Shown piece after piece: positions 13,987 to 54,436 of a DNA stretch of 60,531 nucleotides (the first letter of the stretch is position 1; every line of letters begins with the position of its first letter). The DNA lies in IMG/VR virus record IMGVR_UViG_3300044457_000011, positions 1 to 60,531 of that record; one strand, 5' to 3'. Below the pieces are notes generated by a model that saw only the letters and a list, made by a program, of their open reading frames with translations, made no database searches and was not told the DNA's origin. The position numbers and the translations under genes were made by a program. The DNA comes from a virus.

Positions 13987-14041
13987 CGCGGATCTGGACA
14001 TATGCCGCGAAAGTCACGACTGTCCAGATCCGCTATCGCGG
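13978..14041. terminator. large hairpin between convergent genes
   Basis: Left arm 13978-13999 and right arm 14022-14041 pair over 20 bp with a single CG bulge (CCGCGATAGCG and GATCTGGAC with their complements). The loop holds the core of repeat copy R2. Located between a rightward stop (13986) and a leftward stop (14058), it suits a bidirectional terminator. Confidence 0.6.
13996..14031 (+). repeat. dispersed palindromic repeat, copy R2
   Basis: GGACATATGCCGCG, AAAGTCACGACTGTCC, AGATC. It lies between convergent genes and is embedded in a larger inverted repeat. Confidence 0.85.
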
Positions 14042-14057: not shown

Positions 14058-14672
14058 TTACTTCGGACTGGGCGTCGGCGGGCCCGAAGGCAGTTGCGCC
14101 GGCCGCAGGCCGAAGTCGGGGCCGATCTCGGGGATCCAGATCCAGATGGGCTGGGTGGGTTTATCGCCGCCGCATCCGCCGCCGGTGACCGGGACGCCGT
14201 ACGACGGATCGACCGGCACCCAGTGGCCGGGCAAGGAGTTATCCGGCCGCGCCGGGTTGACTGGCACGCCGAAACCGGGATCGACCGGAAGCCAGCCGAA
14301 GACCGGGGGCAAACCGTAGCCGGGATCGACCGGCACCCAGCTTCCCGGGTAACTCGGCAGGTGGGAGGGGCGCAGGCCGCCGACGCCCCATTCCGGATCG
14401 ATGGGGAGGATGGGGACGCCGGGGGGTTTGATGGGATGAGTGGGACGCAGGCCGCCTTGGCCGTAGCCGGGGTCGACCGGGAATCCGCCGCCAGGGGCGA
14501 TGGGGTGAGAGGGGCGCAGGCCGCCCTGGCCGTAGCCAGGATCGACCGGTAATCCGCCGCCAGGGGCGATGGGATGAGCGGGGAAGCCTTCGTCAATGCC
14601 CCAGCCCGGGTCGACCGGACCGCCGGGGCCGCTGGTGTCACGGACCCAGCCGATAATTCTTCTCCAAGACAT
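14058..14672 (-). CDS. proline/glycine repeat protein (PVDPGYG repeats)
   Basis: 204 aa with an AAGGAG ribosome site before ATG 14672. After MSWRRIIGWVRD almost the entire chain is built of PVDPGYG or PVDPGFG units alternating with GGLRPSHPI and PGGGLP spacers. Units are ~16-24 residues, with at least eight DPGYG-like turns. Such a sequence should be extended or disordered. There is no signal peptide or membrane span. The gene is flanked by repeat copies R2 and R3 as a single-gene cassette. A structural, adhesive or decoy role is possible, but none can be assigned. Confidence 0.75.
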   Translation of the reverse strand: MSWRRIIGWVRDTSGPGGPVDPGWGIDEGFPAHPIAPGGGLPVDPGYGQGGLRPSHPIAPGGGFPVDPGYGQGGLRPTHPIKPPGVPILPIDPEWGVGGLRPSHLPSYPGSWVPVDPGYGLPPVFGWLPVDPGFGVPVNPARPDNSLPGHWVPVDPSYGVPVTGGGCGGDKPTQPIWIWIPEIGPDFGLRPAQLPSGPPTPSPK

Positions 14673-17795: not shown

Positions 17796-18695
17796 GTGGC
17801 GGATATGTCAACCGGCCCGTCGAAAACGTTGTGCTGGACCTGTGGCGGCATTGGGACCATCGCCGGCAGCGTAAATTCAAGCCTTGATCTGCCGCCGGAA
17901 CAATTTCACGCAGAGTTAGAGGCGGCGAGGAAGCCCTGTCCGGAGTGCGGCGGGTCATCGGCCGCTTTACTGCCAGATAGTGCCTGCAAACTCTGCAAGG
18001 GAACCGGCTGGCTCACGGCCGAACGCCGCGGCTTTACCGGGTCACAACTGTGTGAGTGTCAGTTTCCGAAATTCCGGAAGGAGAATCTCGGAGCAGCCAA
18101 TATCCCGCCTCTTTACGAGCGCGCTTCCTTCGACAGTTTCAAGACCAGTGGGCTCCAGTCGCTGTCGAACGTATTTTTTTTGGTCAAAGAATACGCGGAG
18201 AGTTACCTTCAACTGCCTGACCGGCCTGGCCTTTTGTTGATGGGTCAATGCGGTACCGGAAAGACTCATTTAGCTGTCAGTGCACTTAAGCGGATGATTC
18301 AGATGGGCGCTTCCGGCATGTTCGTGGACTATCACGAGCTACTGGACGACATCATGCAAAGTTTCAAATCGGACTCGGGAGAAAGCGACCAAGACATCTA
18401 TTCGAGGGCTAAAAATGCGGAAGTTCTCGTTCTCGATGACCTCGGATCGAACAGGTCGACCGAATGGATCGTGGATTCGGTAACCAGCCTCTTGACCTAC
18501 CGCTGTAATCACCGCTTGATTACAATCGCCACCACCAATTGCCTTCAGGCGCCGCCCATTGACGCCCCGAAAGACAGGACCATTGTGGACTACATAGGCG
18601 ACCGCGGCTGGTCGCGTATCAAGGAAATGTGCACGATTGTAGACGTTCCTTACGACGTGGCCGACTACCGCTGCCGCTCCGTTAAGTTCAGGTGA
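17796..18695 (+). CDS. DnaC/IstB-like helicase loader ATPase with Cys-rich zinc domain
   Basis: 299 aa from GTG 17796, with GGAG at 5 nt. The C-terminal two-thirds is an AAA+ DnaC/IstB module: Walker A GQCGTGKTH at residues 150-158, Walker B VLVLDDLG at 210-217, sensor-1-like IATTN. The N-terminal ~90 residues carry CWTCGG, CPECGG, CKLCKGTG and CECQ, a DnaJ-type zinc-binding pattern. It probably loads the host replicative helicase at the phage origin together with the initiator at 20526-21737. It is flanked by repeat copies R6 and R7. The usual lambda neighbour order (O then P) is not kept. Confidence 0.85.
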   Translation: MADMSTGPSKTLCWTCGGIGTIAGSVNSSLDLPPEQFHAELEAARKPCPECGGSSAALLPDSACKLCKGTGWLTAERRGFTGSQLCECQFPKFRKENLGAANIPPLYERASFDSFKTSGLQSLSNVFFLVKEYAESYLQLPDRPGLLLMGQCGTGKTHLAVSALKRMIQMGASGMFVDYHELLDDIMQSFKSDSGESDQDIYSRAKNAEVLVLDDLGSNRSTEWIVDSVTSLLTYRCNHRLITIATTNCLQAPPIDAPKDRTIVDYIGDRGWSRIKEMCTIVDVPYDVADYRCRSVKFR

Positions 18696-19365: not shown

Positions 19366-20361
19366 CTAACCGAGTGCCTTCTGCAGCGGGTTATGCTTCC
19401 AAATCGTAGCGGGCCGGACATACCGTGCGACGCTCGCTAAGCTCTTGTGACCGCTCAGCTTCATGATGACGCTCTCGGCCGTGCCGCCTTCGATGGCGGC
19501 CGTGATACACCCGGAGCGGAGCGAGTGCGGCGCGTAGCGGGTGGCATCCAGGCCGATCGATTCCGCCGCGTTTTTGACTACTTTCCAGATGCTGCGGTCG
19601 CCGAGACGTTTTCGAGCCTTGGTTTTGGTGGCGTTGGGGCTCAGGTTTGTGAAGAGTGGCCCATTTTTATGCCCCCTGATTGCCATCCACTTCTCCAGCG
19701 CCGCCACCGGACAAGAGCTCGCCTTGGAGCTCCGAAATACGCCGATTATCCGTCCTTTGCCTTCCTGGTCGGTCTTGCTCCTTCCGATTTGAACTCGCAC
19801 GCCTTTCGTCAGGATGTCGAGATCGTCAACGTCCAGGGCCGAGAGCTCTGACCTGCGCATTGCGGAGGCGAAACCGAACAGCAGGATAGCCTTATTACGG
19901 ACGCCAACATCGGTCTTTGGCTGCTTGGCGATCATAGCTCGGAGTTGTTCCGGAGTGATGGCGTCTTTTCCGGCCGCACGGGTTCCCTGCTCGCGTCGCG
20001 CGCCAGCCAGGATGTTAGATATCTGGCGGTCATCGGTAGGTGTCGCCAGCTGCTGCTCCAGATGTTTGTGCCGGATCGCCGCCACACGGCGCTCGGCCGT
20101 GCCAACGCGCATAGTTTCGAGCACCTCCGCCAGATAGAGCGCGACGGTGGCCGGTTTCGCCGGCAGTGACTCTCGCCCGGCGTCCGTGCACCAAGCGCTG
20201 AAGGACCGCCAGTCGCTATCGTAGGCGCGAATGGTCGCCTTGGCCCGGCGGCCCGCGGTAATGCGGTCGATGGCCTTAGACAATCGGCCCATATCGGGTC
20301 CGGTTTCGAAAAGCGATAGTTGCTCCGGCTCTGGGCCGTCAGCGGATGGTACCCATGGCAT
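19366..20361 (-). CDS. int: tyrosine-family integrase
   Basis: 331 aa, a normal length. It has an N-terminal SAM-like core-binding domain (~residues 25-125) and a C-terminal catalytic domain with the full set: Arg169 (AMRRSEL), Lys196 (GRSKTD), His279 and Arg282 (HSLRSG), His305 (SGHKS) and Tyr314 (ARYVRP). It catalyses site-specific integration and excision, marking the phage as temperate. It is transcribed leftward as a single gene. The two HTH proteins at the circular join are excisionase-like and may be directionality factors, but they are far away. Confidence 0.93.
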   Translation of the reverse strand: MPWVPSADGPEPEQLSLFETGPDMGRLSKAIDRITAGRRAKATIRAYDSDWRSFSAWCTDAGRESLPAKPATVALYLAEVLETMRVGTAERRVAAIRHKHLEQQLATPTDDRQISNILAGARREQGTRAAGKDAITPEQLRAMIAKQPKTDVGVRNKAILLFGFASAMRRSELSALDVDDLDILTKGVRVQIGRSKTDQEGKGRIIGVFRSSKASSCPVAALEKWMAIRGHKNGPLFTNLSPNATKTKARKRLGDRSIWKVVKNAAESIGLDATRYAPHSLRSGCITAAIEGGTAESVIMKLSGHKSLASVARYVRPATIWKHNPLQKALG

Positions 20362-20525
20362 AGGTCACGGATCATCATCGCACAACTTGTCGAAACGGTT
20401 ACAACAACCTGCTAATATGACTTCTCAGAGCCATTGGTCGGGCGCGCCGCTATGTTACTTTCTAGGTTCCATGGCCGCCCGATTGGTCGCTAAACCCATG
20501 CCATGGGTACAACCTAGGAGTTCGC

Positions 20526-21737
20526 ATGAGCCGTTACGCGGAACCACCGCGCGTCAACAAAAACCCGCCCGAAGAGGCAAAATCCGGAACCTGTAATATA
20601 TGTTATCGGAACCCGCATATCGGCCAAATTGACCGGTTTCAGGCGGTCCGGGCTGTCGCTCGTGGATTGAACGAAGTGGAGCTCAAGGTCATCATAGAGC
20701 TCGCCGAGCTGGCGGTCAACAATCCGGATTTTTGTTGTTCGGTGAGCTCGCGCGAGCTTGCAAAAACAACGGGTTGTGCACGGTCAAGCGTTAAAGAGGC
20801 GCTCGAGGCTCTAATTGCGAAGTGCATTATTGCTAGTCGTACTGGGGGGCCAAAGTCGGCGACGGTGTACATGGCTAATTTCCTAAAGACGTTTATTTTC
20901 GCCTCGTATTCGGGTGGACCGGAATTCGGTCCACCCCCCATCAACGTAGACCTGAAGGTGGACCGGAATTCGGTCCACCCCCCCGTCCCACGCATACCCG
21001 AAGGTGGACCGGAATTCGGTCCAGGTGGGCCGGAATTCGGTCCACCCCTCAATCCGGAACCTATTGATTCTGCTCAATCTGGCACTTTGGCCAAAAACGT
21101 GCTTTTCGATCGATTAGAAGTATCTACTAATAGAGAAGTATTCGATCGAACGCGTGCGCGCGGGATTACTCCTGTGGAAAATCCGGTCCAAGACGCGCTT
21201 TTCGATGGTTCCGTCCGGCTTGTGGATGCCTTTAAAGATCGAGGAGCAGAAAACCCGATCGAATCCATGCTGAAAGCGAATCCGAAACGCTTCTCCCGCG
21301 CGGAGATAGATTTGGCGAAGCGGTGGATGTACAGCCTGGCCATGAAGCTGAGGAGAGAAAAACCCAAAGAAGCGCCGGACGACAAAATCGTCGCCCAGTT
21401 CCTGGGGATTGCTCCCTGGCCGCGGTTGCTCGCATTTTTGAACGACATCCAAATCGAACGGCTGGAGGTCGGGTATAGCTACGGCTGGTATCTGACGGTG
21501 GCTCTCCAAAGAATCTACGGGATCGAGTGGAGTCCGGCCCGCCAGCGGGCCGCTGAGCGGGAAGCGGCGCAACTGCGAGTCGTATCTCGACCGGAACCAC
21601 CGCCGCCGGCGCCCCCGGAGCCGTTAGTCCAGAGCGGGCTCGACTTCCCCGCCCCAGATATAGACCCGGCGGAAGGCCGGGATTTCGCGGCCGATCTGCT
21701 CGATAAGCTGAAACGGGCGAAATCCGGATTCAAATGA
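20526..21737 (+). CDS. lambda-O-like replication initiator with iterons in the gene
   Basis: 403 aa; TAGGAG lies 7 nt before ATG 20526. Residues ~35-115 form a winged-helix domain (SSRELAKTTGCARSSVKEAL). Residues ~130-174 are encoded by four copies of a palindromic iteron and read as GGPEFGP where in frame. The C-terminal part has a helical region (FSRAEIDLAKRWMYSLAMKL) and a proline-rich tail. DNA-binding domain, internal iterons and a separate C-terminal partner domain match lambda O and relatives. It probably binds its own gene as origin and recruits helicase through the DnaC-like loader. A paralogue of the N-terminal domain follows at 21804. Confidence 0.8.
   Translation: MSRYAEPPRVNKNPPEEAKSGTCNICYRNPHIGQIDRFQAVRAVARGLNEVELKVIIELAELAVNNPDFCCSVSSRELAKTTGCARSSVKEALEALIAKCIIASRTGGPKSATVYMANFLKTFIFASYSGGPEFGPPPINVDLKVDRNSVHPPVPRIPEGGPEFGPGGPEFGPPLNPEPIDSAQSGTLAKNVLFDRLEVSTNREVFDRTRARGITPVENPVQDALFDGSVRLVDAFKDRGAENPIESMLKANPKRFSRAEIDLAKRWMYSLAMKLRREKPKEAPDDKIVAQFLGIAPWPRLLAFLNDIQIERLEVGYSYGWYLTVALQRIYGIEWSPARQRAAEREAAQLRVVSRPEPPPPAPPEPLVQSGLDFPAPDIDPAEGRDFAADLLDKLKRAKSGFK
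20913..21046. other. predicted replication origin: four palindromic iterons
   Basis: Four 23-bp copies at 20913-20935, 20957-20979, 21003-21025 and 21024-21046. Each has arms GTGGACC and GGTCCAC around GGAATTC; the fourth has one G for A and the third ends in GG. Spacings are 44, 46 and 21 bp. The second copy is read in a different codon frame from the others, so the DNA sequence rather than the peptide is conserved. AT-rich DNA follows at ~21060-21150. Confidence 0.8.
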
Positions 21738-21803: not shown

Positions 21804-22142
21804 ATGCTCCAACTTCGACAGATTGATGCGCTGCTGGCGGTGCGCGCTGTCTCTCGTTTCCTAAACGAGCAGGAGTTACGGGTGTTGATTGAGTTGTCGT
21901 GGCGCGCCTACGCGGATCCCGAATTTTATTGCGAGGTAGACCAGGAAGACCTTGCTTTTTCAACAGGTTGCAGTGAGGAGACGGTGCAGCGAGCGATTAT
22001 GCTACTGGCGACGAAGCGTCTACTCGTCCCGTACTCGGGAATGTTCAGAGAGGATCTCTCGTTCCACCTCATTTTTCTGCGCGAGTATGCTTTCACCTGC
22101 AGTCTTTCTGGATGCGCGTGCGAGTCACTTCGTCCCAGCTGA
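21804..22142 (+). CDS. stand-alone winged-helix paralogue of the initiator
   Basis: 112 aa. It aligns throughout with the N-terminal domain of the initiator just upstream (QIDALLAVRAVSRFLNEQEL against the initiator's QIDRFQAVRAVARGLNEVEL; then a TGCSEETVQRAI recognition helix) but has no iteron segment or C-terminal partner domain. It could bind the same iterons and act as a replication regulator or competitor, by analogy with truncated plasmid Rep proteins; that is inference. TAAGAC 9 nt before the ATG suggests a leaderless start. Confidence 0.75.
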   Translation: MLQLRQIDALLAVRAVSRFLNEQELRVLIELSWRAYADPEFYCEVDQEDLAFSTGCSEETVQRAIMLLATKRLLVPYSGMFREDLSFHLIFLREYAFTCSLSGCACESLRPS

Positions 22143-22646: not shown

Positions 22647-23309
22647 CTAGAGCAGAGCCTGACAAAACGTTTCCTCGCTGATGATTGAGATCGGCTTTGA
22701 TTTTTGGAGCTCCATAGCGAGCTCGATCTTTCTTCCCCACGGCGAATGAATCCAATCGCGCGATCCCATCGATCCGATCACTAGGTAATCGACGCGGCGC
22801 GTGATGGTGTTCTCGCAGATCCCGCCCCTGAGCATCGTTTGCTTGAAGCAGTCGTTTCGAGTCCCGCTTGCGAACTTGCCGGTGAAAACGAAAACTTTCT
22901 GATAGAAAACGACCTTGGGCGCGGGTCTAGACAGCGGCAGTGCGGTCGATGGAATGCATCCAACCTGGGCCGGCGGCGTTCTCGCTTCACCCACCTCGCC
23001 TACTAAATCGGTCAGCAGGAACCGAAGGTTATCGAGCTCCTGCGGCGTAACGATCCCATCTTCGTAGATATGAGCCAATAGGCCGACGATTGGACCAATC
23101 GGCCACGTCCCCGTCTCATCGCCGTTGGCGGTGCACCAGTTGGCCAGTACTTCACATTCCGCTTTGCAGACTAAACCGTCGGCTAGTATTCCCTTGACCA
23201 AACCGACAAGTTCATCTAAATTGCGCCCTTCCCGGCGCTTTTTATTAAAGTAAAAATTCAGCGGTTGTCCATCAGCGCCCAGCTGAATGTTATTTTCTAG
23301 ATTTTGCAT
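22647..23309 (-). CDS. BRCT-domain protein
   Basis: 220 aa. Residues ~140-218 form a BRCT domain of the bacterial ligase/RFC type (FVFTGKFASGTR, then RRVDYLVIGSMGSRDW, with a C-terminal ISEETF). No ligase catalytic domain is present. The N-terminal 125 residues are helical and unassigned. Such stand-alone BRCT proteins may bind DNA ends or ADP-ribosylated or phosphorylated partners; the phage role is unknown. AGGGCAGGAA precedes the ATG. Confidence 0.75.
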   Translation of the reverse strand: MQNLENNIQLGADGQPLNFYFNKKRREGRNLDELVGLVKGILADGLVCKAECEVLANWCTANGDETGTWPIGPIVGLLAHIYEDGIVTPQELDNLRFLLTDLVGEVGEARTPPAQVGCIPSTALPLSRPAPKVVFYQKVFVFTGKFASGTRNDCFKQTMLRGGICENTITRRVDYLVIGSMGSRDWIHSPWGRKIELAMELQKSKPISIISEETFCQALL

Positions 23310-26545: not shown

Positions 26546-28249
26546 TCATGCCCGCGTTCCGTTCGCCTTCGCTCTGGCTTTGGCCTTCTCCTTCTTCTTC
26601 GCCTTCGCTTTGGCCGCGGCCCGGCGCCGTTCGAATTCCGATTGCATCCGGGTGGCGATCGTTTCGGCGAGTTCGGCGCCATTGACGCCGTAGGAGGCGG
26701 CCAGCGCCTTCAAGTCATCCATCCGGCTCTCTCCGGTTTCGGCGACGGCATCGGCCATGGCGAGGGCGATCGTCATGCGGGCCAGGTCGCCAGCGGCCGG
26801 TGTGCCAGGCTGGGCGCCGATGTATTTGTCGAACAGTTCGCGGGCGACCCCGTTCCCTTTCACGGTGTCCAGGTCGACATACTCCAGATTGGCGCACGCC
26901 AGGGCTTCAGAGTTGCCGTGCGGCACCAGCGACCAGGCGATACACTGCAGCGCTCCATGCGGGAAGCATTCGGATCCGTTGGATACCTCTCGCAGGACCG
27001 CCCGGAGGATTTCGCGGCGTTGTTCCCAGGAGATCTTTGACGGTAACGCCCGGGCGCGATCGGCCCACAGATCGCCCGACTTGCCAGCCCGTTCCGGACT
27101 TTGCCAGAAGGTGCAATCGGCGCAGCGCTCACTCCTGTGGATGACGGCCCGGCAGATGCGCGTCGACTTCCCGACGGTGGAGTCGGCAAAGATGGCCGGT
27201 TCCGAATGTGGGCACTCTTTCGCTTTCGGGACTTCGGCGTAGTCATGGGAGCCGATCGTGTTTGCCGCCAGGTGTTGCGGGACGGACGAGGATGCGCTGA
27301 TCTGGACGAGCGGCGTGCCGGCCGCGTCGGCGATCGCGACGGCGGCCGCCAGGTGAGCGGCCTGTTTCGCCGCGAAGCAGTTTCTATCCAGGCACCGGTC
27401 CTTCTTACCGAGTTCGATGGCATCGAACAGGCCGGGCGAGGCGCCGGTCCGCTTGGGGCATTGGCTGCAGGCGCCGGCGGCCGGGAGGAGGTCCGGGTCC
27501 TTCAACTTCCACGGCGCCGTAGATAGCTGCAGCATGTACTCGCTTCGCACCACCTCGGCGAGTTGCGAAACGGTAATAAGCGACTTCTCTTCTTCCCCTT
27601 TCTGGCGGTTCCAGGAGGTTCGCTCGAGGTGATTCTCGGCCACGTCGTTTTGGATATCGGCCGGCAGGGAAGCCAGCAGTGTGGCGTGCCCGATGTTGAT
27701 CACGCCGGAATAAAACATCTCGTAAATCGGTGTATCCAGCTTCATGAACTCCAGGCGCTGGCGGACATAGTTATCGGTCCGGGCGGTTTTGAGGGCCAGC
27801 GTGTGGATGTCATACCCGTCGAACTTCAGCAGTTTCTCGTAGGTGTATGCCTCCTCGAGCGGGTGGACGTCTTCCCGGTGGGCATTCTCCATAAGCTGCA
27901 TTTCGATGACTTGGGCGTCGGTCAGGTCCACAAAGTGGGCCAGGATAGTCGGCAGACCGAGCCGATCGTGCGCCCGGAGGCGGCGGGATCCGACGACGCA
28001 TTCAAACTGGACCCCTTTCCGGGTCCGCACCTTGGGATTCCATTTCCGGATGACGATCGGGCTGATCACTCCCATGGCGCGGATGGATTCAACGAGTTCC
28101 TGGAGTTTGACTTCGTCATATCGTTTGCGCGGATTCGTGGGGGATTCCGCGATCAGTTTCAATTCGACCGCGCGGACCGATTGCATTTCAATGGGCGCGG
28201 ACGGAGGTGGCAGGTTAGGCGGGGGAGTACTAGTCTGCGGGTGTGCCAT
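26546..28249 (-). CDS. ParB/RepB/Spo0J-type protein with Cys-rich C-terminal half
   Basis: 567 aa, longer than chromosomal ParB (~300). The N-terminal domain has the nucleotide-binding patches GSRRLRAH (residues 87-94) and ENAHREDVHPLEEA (121-134), followed by an HTH region (~140-175). The second half holds CSQCPKRTG, CLDRNC and further cysteines as in plasmid ParB-like proteins, and ends in a Lys/Ala-rich helix. No ParA gene is present anywhere in the window. It may spread on a phage-encoded parS-like site for regulation, copy protection or prophage maintenance. It follows a small RHH-like gene by 17 bp. Confidence 0.85.
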   Translation of the reverse strand: MAHPQTSTPPPNLPPPSAPIEMQSVRAVELKLIAESPTNPRKRYDEVKLQELVESIRAMGVISPIVIRKWNPKVRTRKGVQFECVVGSRRLRAHDRLGLPTILAHFVDLTDAQVIEMQLMENAHREDVHPLEEAYTYEKLLKFDGYDIHTLALKTARTDNYVRQRLEFMKLDTPIYEMFYSGVINIGHATLLASLPADIQNDVAENHLERTSWNRQKGEEEKSLITVSQLAEVVRSEYMLQLSTAPWKLKDPDLLPAAGACSQCPKRTGASPGLFDAIELGKKDRCLDRNCFAAKQAAHLAAAVAIADAAGTPLVQISASSSVPQHLAANTIGSHDYAEVPKAKECPHSEPAIFADSTVGKSTRICRAVIHRSERCADCTFWQSPERAGKSGDLWADRARALPSKISWEQRREILRAVLREVSNGSECFPHGALQCIAWSLVPHGNSEALACANLEYVDLDTVKGNGVARELFDKYIGAQPGTPAAGDLARMTIALAMADAVAETGESRMDDLKALAASYGVNGAELAETIATRMQSEFERRRAAAKAKAKKKEKAKARAKANGTRA

Positions 28250-40669: not shown

Positions 40670-40705
40670 GCCCGTCTGGTTTGTCCCGGACGGGCTGTCC
40701 TTTTT
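40670..40705 (+). terminator. second intrinsic terminator
   Basis: GCCCGTC and GACGGGC form a 7-bp stem, followed by TGTCCTTTTT. A second strong stop so soon after the first isolates the capsid operon from the glycan cluster, whose promoter begins immediately after it. Confidence 0.8.
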
Positions 40706-40706
40706 G

Positions 40707-40712
40707 TAGCCT
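40707..40712 (+). promoter_or_regulatory. -10 box at the head of the glycan cluster
   Basis: TAGCCT begins 2 bp after the terminator T-run and lies 7 nt before ATG 40720; no Shine-Dalgarno. Confidence 0.45.
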
Positions 40713-40719
40713 GTGGATC

Positions 40720-41433
40720 ATGCCAGACGATATCGATCTCCAGGCCGAGCCGGCCGCGTCCGCGACATGGTCCGTCCCGCGCGAGTGGGCTGGCGACACG
40801 GCGTTCCTTATCGGTGGGGGTCCTTCGCTCCGGGGTTTCCCCGTCGATCGCCTCCGCGGCCGCGGGCGCGTCATCGTTATCAATCGCATGGTGTTGCCGT
40901 GCGAGGAGTGGCCGGGCGTGCCGTGGGCCGATGTCCTCCACTTCTGCGATTGCAGTTTCTGGGTCAGCTTCCGCGACCAGATCCTACCGCTCTGGCAGGG
41001 CGGCCGGATCACCACGCTGTGCAACGGCTACATGGTGGAGGCCGGCGCGGTGGTGGCGGCCCGGATGTACCCGGGCGACGGCCTGTTGCGCTTGGCCCGG
41101 GCGCCGCGGTTGGGGTTGAGCAACGATCCGCGCCGGCTGTCCCACGGTTCGAGCTCGGGCTACCAGGCCATCAATCTCGCCTATCTGTTCGGCGCCACGC
41201 GCATTGTTCTGTTGGGTTTCGATCTGCAGTTCGCGGGCGATCGCACTCACACCCACGCCGGGTACGGGATCCGGCAGGCGACCCTGTCCCACCAGTTGGG
41301 GGTTCATGCGTCCGCGTTCCCGTTCCTGGTGGAGCCGCTCGAGCGCGCCGGTGTGGAAGTCTTGAACGCCAGTCCAAATTCGGCGCTTACGTGTTGGCCG
41401 AGAATTCCGCGCGATGAGACTCTGTCTCTATGA
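40720..41433 (+). CDS. DUF115/MAF-like protein (possible protein glycosylation)
   Basis: 237 aa from ATG 40720; the frame extends to 40681 inside the terminator. AFLIGGGPSLRGFP near residue 29 is a Gly-rich nucleotide-type loop. SSSGYQAINLAYLFGATRIV and LLGFDLQF...HTHAGYG match the phage DUF115-like family, related to motility accessory factors that glycosylate flagellin in some bacteria. It is first gene of the glycan cluster and may move a sugar onto a virion or host protein. That role is inference. Confidence 0.7.
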   Translation: MPDDIDLQAEPAASATWSVPREWAGDTAFLIGGGPSLRGFPVDRLRGRGRVIVINRMVLPCEEWPGVPWADVLHFCDCSFWVSFRDQILPLWQGGRITTLCNGYMVEAGAVVAARMYPGDGLLRLARAPRLGLSNDPRRLSHGSSSGYQAINLAYLFGATRIVLLGFDLQFAGDRTHTHAGYGIRQATLSHQLGVHASAFPFLVEPLERAGVEVLNASPNSALTCWPRIPRDETLSL

Positions 41434-42011
41434 TTCCAGAGGTTTCGGTGGCTATTCCGGTCCGGGCCGGGGAGACGACCATGCCGGTGCTCAAGTCGTT
41501 AGGGCGCCAGGAGGGTGTCCGGCTGCAGGTGAGTATCTGTCACGACGTCGACGGCCGTGGCGCCAATTGGGCGCGGAACCAGGCGGCCGCGGTGGCCCGG
41601 CATCCGTTTCTCCTGTTTAGCGACGCCGATATCGAGTGGGAGCCGATGGCGCTGTTGCATCTGGTGCGGACGCTCGAGGCCAACCCGGGCGCCGCCTACG
41701 CTTACGGCAGCTACGAGATGGCCGGGCGGATCCAATGCACCGAGCCGTTCAGCCCGTCCCGGTTGCGGCAGCGTAACTTCGTATCGACCATGAGCCTGCT
41801 ACGGCGCGAGACGTTCCCGGGGTTCGATGAGTCGATCGGCCGTTTCCAGGATTGGGACCTATGGCTCACGATGCTCAAAAAAGGCCACATCGGCGTGCAA
41901 TCCAATCGCCTGCTATTCCGGACGCGGTTGCGCGACGGGATCACGCTGAACGGCCCGATTTCGGCCGAGGACGGCCGCGCCATTATCCGGCGAAAGCATA
42001 ACCTCGTTTGA
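41430..42011 (+). CDS. family 2-like glycosyltransferase (short)
   Basis: 193 aa, overlapping the previous stop by ATGA. It has a GT-A N-terminus (VSVAIPVRAGETTMPVLKSL), the metal-binding acidic triad as FSDADIEWEP (~residues 66-75) and a late GRFQDWDLWLTMLKKG block typical of GT2 acceptor-side helices. There are no membrane spans, so it is a soluble enzyme. Sugar and acceptor are unknown. Confidence 0.8.
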   Translation: MIPEVSVAIPVRAGETTMPVLKSLGRQEGVRLQVSICHDVDGRGANWARNQAAAVARHPFLLFSDADIEWEPMALLHLVRTLEANPGAAYAYGSYEMAGRIQCTEPFSPSRLRQRNFVSTMSLLRRETFPGFDESIGRFQDWDLWLTMLKKGHIGVQSNRLLFRTRLRDGITLNGPISAEDGRAIIRRKHNLV

Positions 42012-42012
42012 T

Positions 42013-42732
42013 ATGAAAGTCGCCATTTACACGCTCACCCGGGACCGGTTGGAGTACACCCAGCGCAGTTTCGAATCGCTCCGTGAACGCGCCGGTTACG
42101 AGTACAGTCACCTCGTGATCGACAACGGATCCACGGATGGGACGGTCGAGTGGCTGAAGGAGGAATCCAATGCTTCGCGGCTGCAGGTGGCATTCGCCAA
42201 TCGGAATCTCGGTATATCCGTCGCGTCCAATATTGCCCTGGAAGTCATCGGCAACCGTTCGCCGCTCCATCGGCCGGACCTGATCGTGAAAATGGACAAC
42301 GATTGCATGATTAAGAGTCCGGACCTGTTGCGGCGCGTGGTGGAGTGTTTCCAGGCGTCGGAGCAGCGGATATTGGGACCGGCCTTCCTGTTGTCGCCGG
42401 CGGTCATCGGGATTAACAAGCAGCCGCAGGTGGCCCGGCATACCCGGTTGGGGGAGTACCAGATCAATCTGACCGCGATCGTGGGCGGGTTGTTCCACGT
42501 GCTGCCGGCGACCGCGTATCTGCATTACCGCTATCCCGAGAACTTGCCTTATGCCAAAGGGCAGGACGACGCTCTCTGCAACTACTGGAAACAGCAGGGC
42601 GGCGAGGTCGGATACATCGACGCTCTGATGGTGGAGCACATGGACGGCACCGACGCGCAGGCAGAGAAATACCCGGAGTATTTTCAGCGCAAGTGGTTAG
42701 AAGAAAAGCAAATTCCGCCTTCTGACGACTGA
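42013..42732 (+). CDS. family 2 glycosyltransferase
   Basis: 239 aa. VAIYTLTRDRLEYTQRSFES, LVIDNGSTDGTVEWL and the DxD-like KMDNDC (~residues 94-99) mark a GT-A fold. A later YAKGQDDALCNYWKQQG block carries the catalytic-base-type acidic pair. It starts 1 bp after the previous gene. Soluble; substrate unknown. Confidence 0.85.
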   Translation: MKVAIYTLTRDRLEYTQRSFESLRERAGYEYSHLVIDNGSTDGTVEWLKEESNASRLQVAFANRNLGISVASNIALEVIGNRSPLHRPDLIVKMDNDCMIKSPDLLRRVVECFQASEQRILGPAFLLSPAVIGINKQPQVARHTRLGEYQINLTAIVGGLFHVLPATAYLHYRYPENLPYAKGQDDALCNYWKQQGGEVGYIDALMVEHMDGTDAQAEKYPEYFQRKWLEEKQIPPSDD

Positions 42733-42753
42733 CCGCGCCCGGCGCTCTCTGCT

Positions 42754-42759
42754 TATACT
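42754..42759 (+). promoter_or_regulatory. -10 box before the alpha-toroid gene
   Basis: TATACT, 6 nt before GTG 42766, with no Shine-Dalgarno. It is the best example of the leaderless layout in this genome. Confidence 0.55.
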
Positions 42760-42765
42760 TCCGTT

Positions 42766-43917
42766 GTGAATCTCCACTACTTACTCGCTGACAACATAGC
42801 TAAAGGCGAGCGTTGGCTTGAGCAGCAACACGAGGCCGGATGCTACTTCGCAAACGAACACGACCGCGGCATCCAGCCGACAGCGGCCGCGGCGCACTAT
42901 TGGGCCTGGGCGGCGGCGATAAAAGTGGGCAAGGATCGCGGCTACCTGAACCACGCGCGGGCGGCCGCCGACTGGATGGCGGGTTACTGGGAAGAGAACG
43001 AGCGGCGATTGCCCGATCCGGGATCTGGCACCGAGTACTTCTTTGACCTGGGATGCGCTGCCCGGGCACTGTTCGCGGTGTATCGGGCGACCGAAGTTGA
43101 GCGCTATGCAGATGTTTCGGTGCAGATGGTGGCCCGGATGAGCGACTTTGCCAACGCCACTTATCCCGGCCGGTTCCACGCCGTTATTGAACTCCCGGGT
43201 GCAGTCACCTACATTGACCCCGACGCGCCGCCCATACCAAACGGCCATCCCGCCTGGCGGCAAACGTTCGGGCCGCACCAGCGGAAGGCGGCCGTTGCTC
43301 TCCGCTTGTTTAATCGCCCGCTTTATGACGTGGTCGACGTAGCCCTGATGGACTACGCTGTCTACTTCACAGCAGAGACCGGAGTGGACCCGGATTTACC
43401 GTTAGCTGCGGCCTATGAGCAGGAGGACCCGGCCAAGCGCCAGAAGCCAACCGGTAAGGTCGCCAAGGAGATAGCGGAGTTCACGCGGCGGTGCGCTATC
43501 CGATCGGCCGAGCACGACGCGGTGCGCTGCCAGATCGAGGCGTATTCGGCCGAGGCGTTGGTATTGGGGCAGTATTCGCAACAGCGGGCGCGGCAAGTGA
43601 TCGAGCAGTTGGGCGTGCTGATCGCCCAGTCGCCCATCCTGCGAACCGACGCCTATGGGCAGTGGATCCGCTTGCGGTTGCTCACCGGCGCTAAACCTTC
43701 GTTTCCGCTGATCGACATCGAGAAGCTGTGCCAGGCGCAGACCCCTTCCGGCGGGTGGCAGACGTTTATGGCCCATCCGGATCCGGCGACCTGCATTGAG
43801 TGTTCGGTGGAGGCGACGGTCATCGCCATGCAGACCTTGGGCATCTACGCGGACAGGAGCGATCGCACCGCGTTCCCGCACGGTCCGCTCGGTAAGCGCG
43901 AACTGGTGATCATATGA
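42766..43917 (+). CDS. alpha/alpha-toroid-like protein in the glycan cluster
   Basis: 383 aa from GTG 42766. The chain is built of repeated helix pairs (AAAHYWAWAAAIKVGKDRGY, ARAAADWMAGYW, ...SVEATVIAMQTLGIY) and has a QTPSGGWQTF turn, as in six-hairpin glycosidases and terpene-cyclase-type toroids. It is likely a sugar-processing enzyme given its neighbours, but catalytic residues cannot be assigned. It overlaps the next gene by ATGA. Confidence 0.55.
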   Translation: MNLHYLLADNIAKGERWLEQQHEAGCYFANEHDRGIQPTAAAAHYWAWAAAIKVGKDRGYLNHARAAADWMAGYWEENERRLPDPGSGTEYFFDLGCAARALFAVYRATEVERYADVSVQMVARMSDFANATYPGRFHAVIELPGAVTYIDPDAPPIPNGHPAWRQTFGPHQRKAAVALRLFNRPLYDVVDVALMDYAVYFTAETGVDPDLPLAAAYEQEDPAKRQKPTGKVAKEIAEFTRRCAIRSAEHDAVRCQIEAYSAEALVLGQYSQQRARQVIEQLGVLIAQSPILRTDAYGQWIRLRLLTGAKPSFPLIDIEKLCQAQTPSGGWQTFMAHPDPATCIECSVEATVIAMQTLGIYADRSDRTAFPHGPLGKRELVII

Positions 43918-44726
43918 GCCCGGCCACCCAGGAGAGTCCTATCGGTTGGTATGCGCCGCCGGCGCGGGTGATGAAGCCGCAGGTGATTGTCACGTCCTAC
44001 CGGCGGCCGCTCTACCTCGAGCAATGTCTCGGTTCGTTGCGGCAATGCGACATCGAGTTGTACGCCGTCGACGGCGGCGATCGCGACGAGGAAACCACGC
44101 GAGTCCTGGACAACTATTGCGACAAGTGGCTGGGATTGACCGGCAATCCGGGCGCCGACGTGGCGCGGAACGCGGGTCTGAAGGCGTTTGTCACCGACCC
44201 GGTGTGCGTCTTTTCTTCCGATGACTACGTGTACCCGCGACGGTGGGCCGCCGAACTGCTCGACCAGTGGTACTCGCTCCGCGGACCCAAGAGCGCCGGC
44301 GCCAGCCAGTGGGGGATGATCGCCTGTCCAACGGAGGAAGTGATCCGGATTCATGGGGACTCGGGCGATCGCGCCTATCAGCAACCCGATTTGTTCTCCA
44401 TCAGGAAGATGTGTCTGGTGGATCAGATCCCGGGCGCCTCTGGCGTGCTGATCGATACGAACCTTTTACGCCGGATCGGCGGGTTCCCGGTCTATGGGCG
44501 GTTTGGCCATGGACTCGCCGCGCTCTCGATTGAAATGTCGAGCCGCAATATCCTACGCGGCTACTCCGACGCGCCCGTCGTCGGTCACCCGGGGGTCTAT
44601 CTCTACCCGGAGCACAGCGATCGCCGGGCGGCGGTGGCCGGCTGGCGGACCGAGGCCGCGGCCCATCGGCCCGGGGAGCGATGCGGGAATATATGGCCGG
44701 GCGACCTCCCGGGGGATGCGCTGTGA
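43914..44726 (+). CDS. family 2-like glycosyltransferase
   Basis: 270 aa. VIVTSYRRPLYLEQCLGSLR, the LYAVDGGDRDEETTRVLDNY nucleotide-sugar site and FSSDDYVYPRRW (DxD-like) identify a GT-A enzyme. It overlaps neighbours at both ends (ATGA and GTGA), so it is tightly coupled to the toroid protein and the methyltransferase. It is soluble. Confidence 0.8.
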   Translation: MSPATQESPIGWYAPPARVMKPQVIVTSYRRPLYLEQCLGSLRQCDIELYAVDGGDRDEETTRVLDNYCDKWLGLTGNPGADVARNAGLKAFVTDPVCVFSSDDYVYPRRWAAELLDQWYSLRGPKSAGASQWGMIACPTEEVIRIHGDSGDRAYQQPDLFSIRKMCLVDQIPGASGVLIDTNLLRRIGGFPVYGRFGHGLAALSIEMSSRNILRGYSDAPVVGHPGVYLYPEHSDRRAAVAGWRTEAAAHRPGERCGNIWPGDLPGDAL

Positions 44727-45262
44727 AGGAGGCCGGGCCGCGGTTTATGAATATCTGCGCCGGCGATCGCGTCTTTCCCGGATGGGAATCGACCGACATC
44801 GCACCCACCGATCCGCGCGTCCTGATGGCTGACGCCACTTCCCTGCCCTACGCCGACGCCACCGTCGACGTCGTCATGATGAGTCACGCTTTGACGAACC
44901 TCGACCGGGTCAAGAACGGATGGCGGCGCTGTTTTGAAGAGGTGCACCGGGTGTTACGGCCGGGCGGCTGTTTCCGGATCGATGACGCGCCCGAGCGGTG
45001 GTACGTGACGGACGAGCAAGGCATGCCCATTATCGAGCCGGACTTCGCAGCCTACGCCAAGCCGCGGGGTTGGGTGGTGCGGGCGCTTTATATGTCCGGC
45101 TTCAGCGAAGTGTTTTCGGTGAATCCCGCGACCACCTCTATTCCCGCGTTGCTCGACACCTTCACCTACAGCGCCGAGGAACGGTGGCAACTCGAGCACG
45201 GTCTAATCGGCAACAAAAGCTGGCACGTATCTTTCACGCTCGAAGCGGTGAAGGCGCTGTAA
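44723..45262 (+). CDS. SAM-dependent methyltransferase (class I)
   Basis: 179 aa from GTG 44723 (GTGA overlap); ATG 44747 is an alternative with GGAGG farther upstream. MNICAGDRVFPGWESTDIAP corresponds to motif I, LMADATSLPYADATVDVVMM to motifs II-IV, and VHRVLRPGGCFRID to the post-motif strand. The short N-terminus lacks a canonical GxGxG. It may O-methylate a sugar made by the neighbours. Repeat copy R8 starts at the last base of its stop codon. Confidence 0.8.
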   Translation: MKEAGPRFMNICAGDRVFPGWESTDIAPTDPRVLMADATSLPYADATVDVVMMSHALTNLDRVKNGWRRCFEEVHRVLRPGGCFRIDDAPERWYVTDEQGMPIIEPDFAAYAKPRGWVVRALYMSGFSEVFSVNPATTSIPALLDTFTYSAEERWQLEHGLIGNKSWHVSFTLEAVKAL

Positions 45263-45297
45263 TCGGGACAGTCCGGACAAAGGAGGAAATATGTCTG
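45262..45297 (-). repeat. dispersed palindromic repeat, copy R8 (diverged), over a start codon
   Basis: On the minus strand: AGACATATTTCC, TCCTTTGTCC, GGACTGTCCCGATT. The right half matches the consensus at 16 of 18 positions. The left arm coincides with the ATGTCT start of the deacetylase-like gene, and the centre contains its AGGAGG ribosome site. Confidence 0.6.
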
Positions 45298-45914
45298 TAT
45301 CAGACGAACAACACGGCCCGCTCATTTTGGACCTGGACGACTTCACCGGCGAGGACCAGCAGCTTAACGAACTCGACAACTTACGCCAGCTGTTCGGCGA
45401 AGAGTTCCAGGTCACCTTGTTTACGATCCCCGGCTTGTGCGGCCTAAAACGCGCCGAGACCGTCCGGCGGGAGTTTCCGGGGATGGAGATGGTTCCGCAC
45501 GGTTTTCTCCATCCGGACGCCCACGAATGCAGCCGGTGGACGGGGCCGATGATGGAGGCGTACCTGGATGAGATCGCGGGCCTCTTATTCGAGAAGGGGT
45601 TCAAGGCGCCGGGTTGGCAGATCACCGATCCGATGTATTGGGTCCTGCTCAAGCGCGGTTATTGGGTAGCCGACCAAATCTACAACCGGCCGCGGCGCCC
45701 GGCCGAATTGCTGGCCTACGAGGTGGACGAGGCCCGGAAGATCCACGGCCATATGGGGCACTTGGGCGGCCACAACATGAACGAGTTGACCCTCATTCTG
45801 CCCGTTCTTACGAGCCAAGTGCGCTTCCTGGAAGAACGGCGGCAAGCGGGCCTCTACAAAGGCACGCTGTTCGGCTTGTGCGGGAACGAGTTACGGCTCA
45901 CCGGGGAGGCGTAA
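45291..45914 (+). CDS. polysaccharide-deacetylase-like protein
   Basis: 207 aa with AGGAGG upstream. LILDLDDFTGEDQ near the start, VPHGFLHPDAHECSRWT (~residues 65-80) and FKAPGWQITDPMYW resemble the TFDD, HxxxH and substrate-groove motifs of NodB-type deacetylases. The metal histidines His66, His70 and His74 are present but spaced unusually. It may trim N-acetyl groups from a glycan. It overlaps the next gene by one base (TAATG). It is bracketed by repeat R8 and a partial copy at 45964. Confidence 0.65.
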   Translation: MSVSDEQHGPLILDLDDFTGEDQQLNELDNLRQLFGEEFQVTLFTIPGLCGLKRAETVRREFPGMEMVPHGFLHPDAHECSRWTGPMMEAYLDEIAGLLFEKGFKAPGWQITDPMYWVLLKRGYWVADQIYNRPRRPAELLAYEVDEARKIHGHMGHLGGHNMNELTLILPVLTSQVRFLEERRQAGLYKGTLFGLCGNELRLTGEA

Positions 45915-46633
45915 TGGCCCGCTACGACATCGTGATTCCGCATTGGGGCGAGGGTGCCCTTACGGACATTTGCCGCTTGTGTCTGGACTCGGTGGCCAAC
46001 GCCGGCGGGGACTTCCGGTTGATCCTGGTGGACAACGGTTCGGCGGACCCGCGCCGGCTGCAGCCGCAACTGGACCGCATGGACCACGTTGTCATTCGCA
46101 ATTCTGAGAACCTTGGATTCATCCGGGCGACGAACCAGGGCATTCAGTTCTCCACGGCGCCACTCGTGGTTCTGCTGAACAATGACACCCTGGTTCCGCC
46201 CGGGTGGTTGCAGCTGCTCGAGCAGCCGTTTCGCGAGGTTCCGAACGCTGGACTCTCCGGGCCGCTCACCGACACCACGGCCAGTTGGCAGGGGCAATGG
46301 AAGAAGCGCAACAACGGCGGCATCGTCACGTTGGCGCCCGGGCGGATGCTGGCTTTTTTTTGCGTCATGATCCATCGCCAGGTGATTGACGAAATCGGCT
46401 ACCTGGACGAAGCGTATGGCGTCGGTTTCGGCGACGATGATGAGTACTGCCGGCGGGCCGAGGAAGCCGGTTACAAGCTCTGTCTGTGTCAGGACCTGAA
46501 AGTGGCGCACCGTCACCGGACGTCGTTTCAGGTTCGCTACACACCGGAGGAGATCACCAAAATGCAGAGCGATGCGATGCGTCGTTTCCGATTGAGCAAA
46601 GGAGTTTTCGATGGCCTACGTTCCAAGTCTTAG
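45914..46633 (+). CDS. family 2 glycosyltransferase (rhamnosyltransferase-like)
   Basis: 239 aa from ATG 45914. It has DIVIPHWGEGALTDICRLCL, LILVDNGSADPRRLQ, ENLGFIRATNQGI, the VLLNNDTLVPPGWL metal site and a FGDDDEYCRRAEEAGYKLCL block, all standard for GT2 enzymes that add rhamnose-like sugars. It is a full soluble GT-A domain and the most canonical glycosyltransferase in the window. Confidence 0.9.
   Translation: MARYDIVIPHWGEGALTDICRLCLDSVANAGGDFRLILVDNGSADPRRLQPQLDRMDHVVIRNSENLGFIRATNQGIQFSTAPLVVLLNNDTLVPPGWLQLLEQPFREVPNAGLSGPLTDTTASWQGQWKKRNNGGIVTLAPGRMLAFFCVMIHRQVIDEIGYLDEAYGVGFGDDDEYCRRAEEAGYKLCLCQDLKVAHRHRTSFQVRYTPEEITKMQSDAMRRFRLSKGVFDGLRSKS
45964..45989 (+). repeat. partial match to the dispersed repeat inside a gene
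   Basis: GGACATTTGCCGC is an exact 13-bp match to the repeat left half, followed by TTGTGTCTGGACT. It lies near the 5' end of the glycosyltransferase frame, so it may be a genuine site or a coding coincidence. Confidence 0.4.
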
Positions 46634-54402: not shown

Positions 54403-54436
54403 ATCGGGACTCTCGGGACAATCGCGGCTTATGTCT
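54403..54436 (-). repeat. dispersed palindromic repeat, copy R9 (tandem pair, first)
   Basis: On the minus strand: AGACATAAGCCGCG, ATTGTCCCGAGAGTCCCGAT. The arms changed in concert (ATTGTCC with GACAT). It lies 4 bp after the T stop. Confidence 0.8.

Follow-up and report, generated by a model that had tools for sequence, protein, structure and literature searches.

The predicted initiator gene and its surroundings

The virus record comprises 60,531 bases, and the window, by which we mean the whole stretch of DNA that was analysed, covers all of it. A terminase, a tyrosine integrase, and ParB-like proteins are encoded, and further structural genes could be read off the ORF list by their translations; a temperate tailed phage is most likely the source, and forms part of our best explanation for the locus. 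At only ~31% identity to its closest relatives, the terminase is in keeping with an isolated lineage. A run of ORFs (40681–46633), several of them glycosyltransferase-like as judged by reading their translations, separates the capsid-like genes from later tail-like ones, and a minus-strand ORF at 14058–14672 contains degenerate 69-bp repeats and encodes a G/P-rich protein with repeats of the type PVDPGYG.

The locus of interest is a plus-strand ORF of 403 amino acids (20526–21737), with an AGGAG ribosome-binding-site-like sequence immediately before its ATG, which is predicted to encode a replication initiator on the basis of a Pfam HTH_36 match (2e-5) and matches to PHROG replication-initiation families. 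Both kinds of match fall in an N-terminal helix-turn-helix (HTH) DNA-binding domain (20622–20900, plus strand); the PHROG matches of the protein are weak and confined to the HTH, and the domain alone returns replication-initiation PHROGs 270, 391, and 6643 at 4e-5 to 4e-4. An AlphaFold2 model of this domain, built from two sequences (pLDDT 73.6), shows a helical, HTH-like structure, and its matches are to the generic HTH fold only, with Z at most 7 and none significant. The full-length model was set aside as too poor (pLDDT 42). The C-terminal region (21150–21737, plus strand), for which the model is likewise of low confidence, is a candidate for the part that binds a loader or helicase; the C-terminal 228 amino acids had no PHROG match at E values up to 10.

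A candidate partner lies upstream in the form of a DnaC-like AAA+ helicase loader (17796–18695, plus strand; phrog_50, 8.9e-46; IstB_IS21, 1e-8) that carries N-terminal cysteine motifs. The 1.8 kb from the end of its gene to the initiator gene contain two genes on the opposite strand, and a search with the loader as query found no close viral relative. Directly downstream of the initiator gene is, unusually, an ORF for a 112-amino-acid protein (21804–22142, plus strand; HTH_36, 8.5e-6), a paralogue of the initiator's N-terminal domain only, with 40% identity over 98 amino acids (E 2e-19) and neither iterons nor a C-terminal part. Further on, a BRCT-domain protein is encoded on the minus strand (22647–23309; phrog_3989, 1.9e-48), whose kin are DNA ligase- or BRCT-annotated proteins of Pseudomonas phages and an ORF of Vibrio phage K139. 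On the other side, the integrase and initiator genes diverge from an intergenic region that is flanked by a 17-nt inverted repeat (arms 20349–20365 and 20494–20510, 94% complementary and 128 nt apart), with the start codon of the integrase under one arm; this repeat could be an invertible promoter, a set of integrase arm sites, or an operator.

No relatives of the initiator were found in the viral and bacterial collections. A tblastn search of phages and plasmids returned only unrelated HTH proteins, at E values of 2 or worse, and the 20 virus records that share the terminase family at ~31% identity yielded none. The protein was also absent from 396 genomes from the phylum of a Bryobacterales (Acidobacteria) metagenome-assembled genome and from 398 from the phylum of Aquincola, two phyla that were guesses at that of the host. 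One match (E 2e-4) was rejected because it aligned by chance with the end of a cellular protein that is unrelated.

The iteron array and the AT-rich tract

Within the initiator gene, the 23-bp iteron GGTGGACCGGAATTCGGTCCACC occurs four times on the plus strand, at 20913–20935, 20957–20979, 21003–21025, and 21024–21046, so that the starts are 44, 46, and 21 bp apart. A preceding sequence-only reading had reported these four copies and their spacing, and our analysis bears this out; the iteron is moreover exclusive to the array, as no further copy is present in the 60.5-kb record, where 0 would be expected by chance according to dinucleotide-preserving shuffles, and the window contains no second array. 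The description of all four copies as palindromes needs qualification. Copies 1 and 2 are identical to each other and form perfect 9-5-9 dyads, and the window has no other perfect inverted repeats of this kind (expectation per shuffle, 0.35), whereas the dyads of copies 3 and 4 are imperfect. Copy 3 retains an identical core and has two mismatches, both at the 3' edge, in the overlap with copy 4 (its outer CC is GG); copy 4 has one mismatch, an A to G change in the left arm that is a synonymous change of GGA to GGG. Although every iteron contains GAATTC, enrichment of that hexamer was discarded as a signal because its count in the window equals expectation.

Searches with the iteron were as unproductive as those with the protein. 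The exact 23-mer was not found in viral contigs, and a search for its arms with a variable spacer gave 92 matches, all of them single chance palindromes. In sampled bacterial genomes, the 16-base dyad gave at least 118 stretches, none of which, among the matches listed, was an array. One locus with seemingly two related palindromes was rejected, as it precedes a terminase-like gene and is unrelated.

Relative to the start of the ORF, the iterons lie in frames 0, 2, 0, and 0, confirming that the second is out of frame with the others; copies 1, 3, and 4 encode GGPEFGP, and copy 2 encodes KVDRNSVHP. The array grew as a 46-bp unit was duplicated in tandem: Tandem Repeats Finder reports such a unit in 2.5 copies together with a 21-bp unit in 2 copies, and the spacers after iterons 1 and 2 are homologous, matching at 16 of 21 aligned bases with a 2-nt indel, an alignment equalled in 1 of 2000 shuffles. 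The iterons beside these drifted spacers are identical at 23 of 23 and 21 of 21 bases, despite the change of frame introduced by the indel. Because the iteron cores have stayed identical while the spacers drifted and the frame changed, the DNA looks constrained. That the DNA is kept independently of the peptide had been asserted outright; the pattern, the strongest sign of this in the sequence, is indeed suggestive of selection on the iteron DNA rather than on the peptide, with one genome and few sites to judge by. One might instead suppose that the array is a repetitive palindromic element or a peptide linker repeat, inserted and amplified without any function of the DNA, and both the tandem duplication and the probable flexibility of the linker region would suit such an origin. 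We consider this exceedingly improbable, however, given the identity of the cores amid drifting spacers and a shifted frame, the lack of other copies in the record, and the fact that GGPEFGP has 4096 possible spellings, of which the in-frame copies use one, bar the one synonymous change.

The stretch of iterons also folds better than shuffled sequence, as RNA or as DNA (z −4.7), which would be in keeping with inverted repeats that act as hairpins in RNA or single-stranded DNA, either in the control of translation or as single-strand priming sites. Any palindromic array folds strongly, however, the minimum-energy RNA structure pairs the copies with one another and not within each copy, and there is no Rfam family match; we therefore give this explanation almost no credence.

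To the right of the iterons is an AT-rich tract (21083–21142), a candidate DNA-unwinding element. It contains the record's most AT-rich 40-bp window (21103–21142, 72% AT), which lies 57 bp past the last iteron and is still within the initiator gene; when windows of 60 or 100 bp are used, the tract comes third in the record. A switch in cumulative GC skew had been proposed as a check for an origin at ~21 kb, and no such switch was seen there: the curve reaches its minimum at 10.7 kb and tracks gene orientation. The skew profile is thus neither for nor against an origin at this position.

A probable replication origin within the initiator gene

The co-occurrence of an HTH protein resembling initiators, palindromic iterons, an AT-rich tract beside them, and a helicase loader is best explained by a theta-type replication origin that the phage carries within the very gene that encodes its initiator, operating through the HTH domain, the iterons, the AT-rich tract, and the loader. 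We consider this very probable. Four features of an in-gene origin are present, namely repeats within the gene, an adjoining AT-rich tract, an N-terminal HTH domain (for which the evidence is weak but consistent), and a loader encoded nearby. Under such a mechanism, the HTH domain, presumably as a dimer, would bind the four palindromic iterons, and the bound initiator would build a nucleoprotein complex. Melting would then occur in the AT-rich tract a short way downstream, and the C-terminal region of the initiator would recruit the phage's DnaC-like loader, which in turn would put host DnaB on the opened strand. Iteron binding, melting, and loader recruitment are the most likely sequence of events judging by the layout and by analogy with lambda and SPP1.

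Alternatively, one could envision the iterons as operators or other regulatory sites for the HTH protein or for the downstream paralogue, controlling transcription of the replication region, with replication starting elsewhere. The HTH matches of the initiator also take in transcription regulators (GntR), and a paralogue consisting of the DNA-binding domain only is encoded directly downstream. However, the array lies mid-gene, ~390 bp beyond the start codon, no promoter-like site was found on the plus strand, and the adjoining AT maximum and the loader better suit an origin, so we regard purely regulatory sites as quite improbable. It is possible that iteron binding serves both regulation and the origin. 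With the in-gene origin as the preferred reading, the paralogue might compete for the same iterons and so act as a phage-encoded brake or timer, that is, as an origin-specific replication repressor. This is unlikely, but if true, a duplicated DNA-binding domain would serve to restrain the phage's own in-gene origin.

Centromeres typically have palindromic arrays, and the phage encodes a ParB protein with N-terminal and HTH domains (26546–28249), 5.5 kb from the array, so the iterons might also be taken for a parS-like centromere bound by that protein. We judge this very improbable: no ParA was seen among the ORFs scanned, which were a part of all ORFs, and the sites lie within an HTH replication-type gene, beside the AT-rich tract. 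The role of a genome-wide binding site would be better filled by a 36-bp element that is dispersed over the record (approximate consensus GGACATWTGCCGCGMRAGTCYAGACTGTCTSGAT), with nine strong copies, mostly between predicted genes, at 13994, 14746, 16563, 17050, 17717, 18697, and 60229 on the plus strand and at 54403 and 54448 on the minus strand, and weak copies at 45262 (minus) and 45962 (plus). This element may be a set of phage promoters or operators, may be stoperator-like, or may comprise the binding sites of the phage ParB.

Comparison with known in-gene origins

The origins of lambda and Stx phages sit in gene O and consist of iterons and an AT-rich tract (PMC7466680). The present locus resembles the lambda origin in having an initiator gene with four dyad-symmetric iterons mid-gene, in several codon frames, and an AT-rich tract directly to their right; by the same measurement as used here, the AT maximum of lambda gene O also directly follows its iterons. 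The use of two codon frames, which had been singled out as a distinguishing trait, does not set the array apart, since the four annotated lambda iterons are in frames 0, 2, 2, and 1 and thus occupy all three. The iteron sequence differs from that of lambda, as do its length (23 bp here, 18 bp in lambda) and spacing (44/46/21 here, 20/24/23 in lambda), and in place of an adjacent P-type protein the candidate partner here is an AAA+ loader of DnaC-like type, whose gene lies upstream.

The likeness to lambda does not extend to the protein family. There is no match to phrog_277 or to Pfam replication protein O at E values up to 1, no similarity to lambda O could be detected in the C-terminal domain, and the gene next to the initiator encodes the HTH paralogue, not a P-type protein; for these reasons, we find no support for placing the protein in the lambda O family, and the initiator is best regarded, on sequence comparison, as an unplaced protein separate from that family. 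An hhalign comparison of the pair of N-terminal domains with lambda O gave a probability of 2% (E 0.02), and a phmmer search with lambda O found no solved structure for a comparison of the N-terminal fold. Of the lambda O-like layout put forward by the sequence-only reading, the HTH domain, the internal iterons, and the AT-rich tract stand, and the C-terminal partner domain, which has no family match, is not confirmed. Similarly, its designation of a lambda-type origin holds insofar as the locus would work like the lambda origin or SPP1 oriL, but is not shown as an assignment to the lambda O family.

In SPP1, oriL lies within gene 38 and comprises direct repeats and an AT-rich DNA-unwinding element, with gp39 as the helicase loader (PMC6316719). 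The present locus can be likened to it by layout, as a gene for an origin-binding protein with direct repeats and an AT-rich unwinding element in a phage with its own helicase loader. SPP1 (gp38/gp39/gp40) differs in encoding its own helicase and in having a second origin, oriR, whereas there is no second array here. Butyrivibrio phage Ceridwen and Pseudomonas phage phiPSA1 share with the present phage a module of replication initiator and AAA+ DnaC-like loader; in both, however, the loader directly follows the initiator, and their initiators have no significant similarity to the present one. Ceridwen has in-gene palindromic repeats with a 24-bp period, followed by the AT maximum of the gene; phiPSA1 has no such direct repeats.

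The analysis thus offers a concrete candidate origin and a new 23-bp iteron in a divergent phage without a close relative in the collections searched. It adds a further case of the in-gene origin layout from a phage that is not lambdoid, in which the C-terminus of the initiator differs and the loader is of the DnaC type; this suggests that the layout recurs across unrelated initiators. The in-gene arrangement is already established in lambda and SPP1, and the present case is a new example of it, not a new principle.
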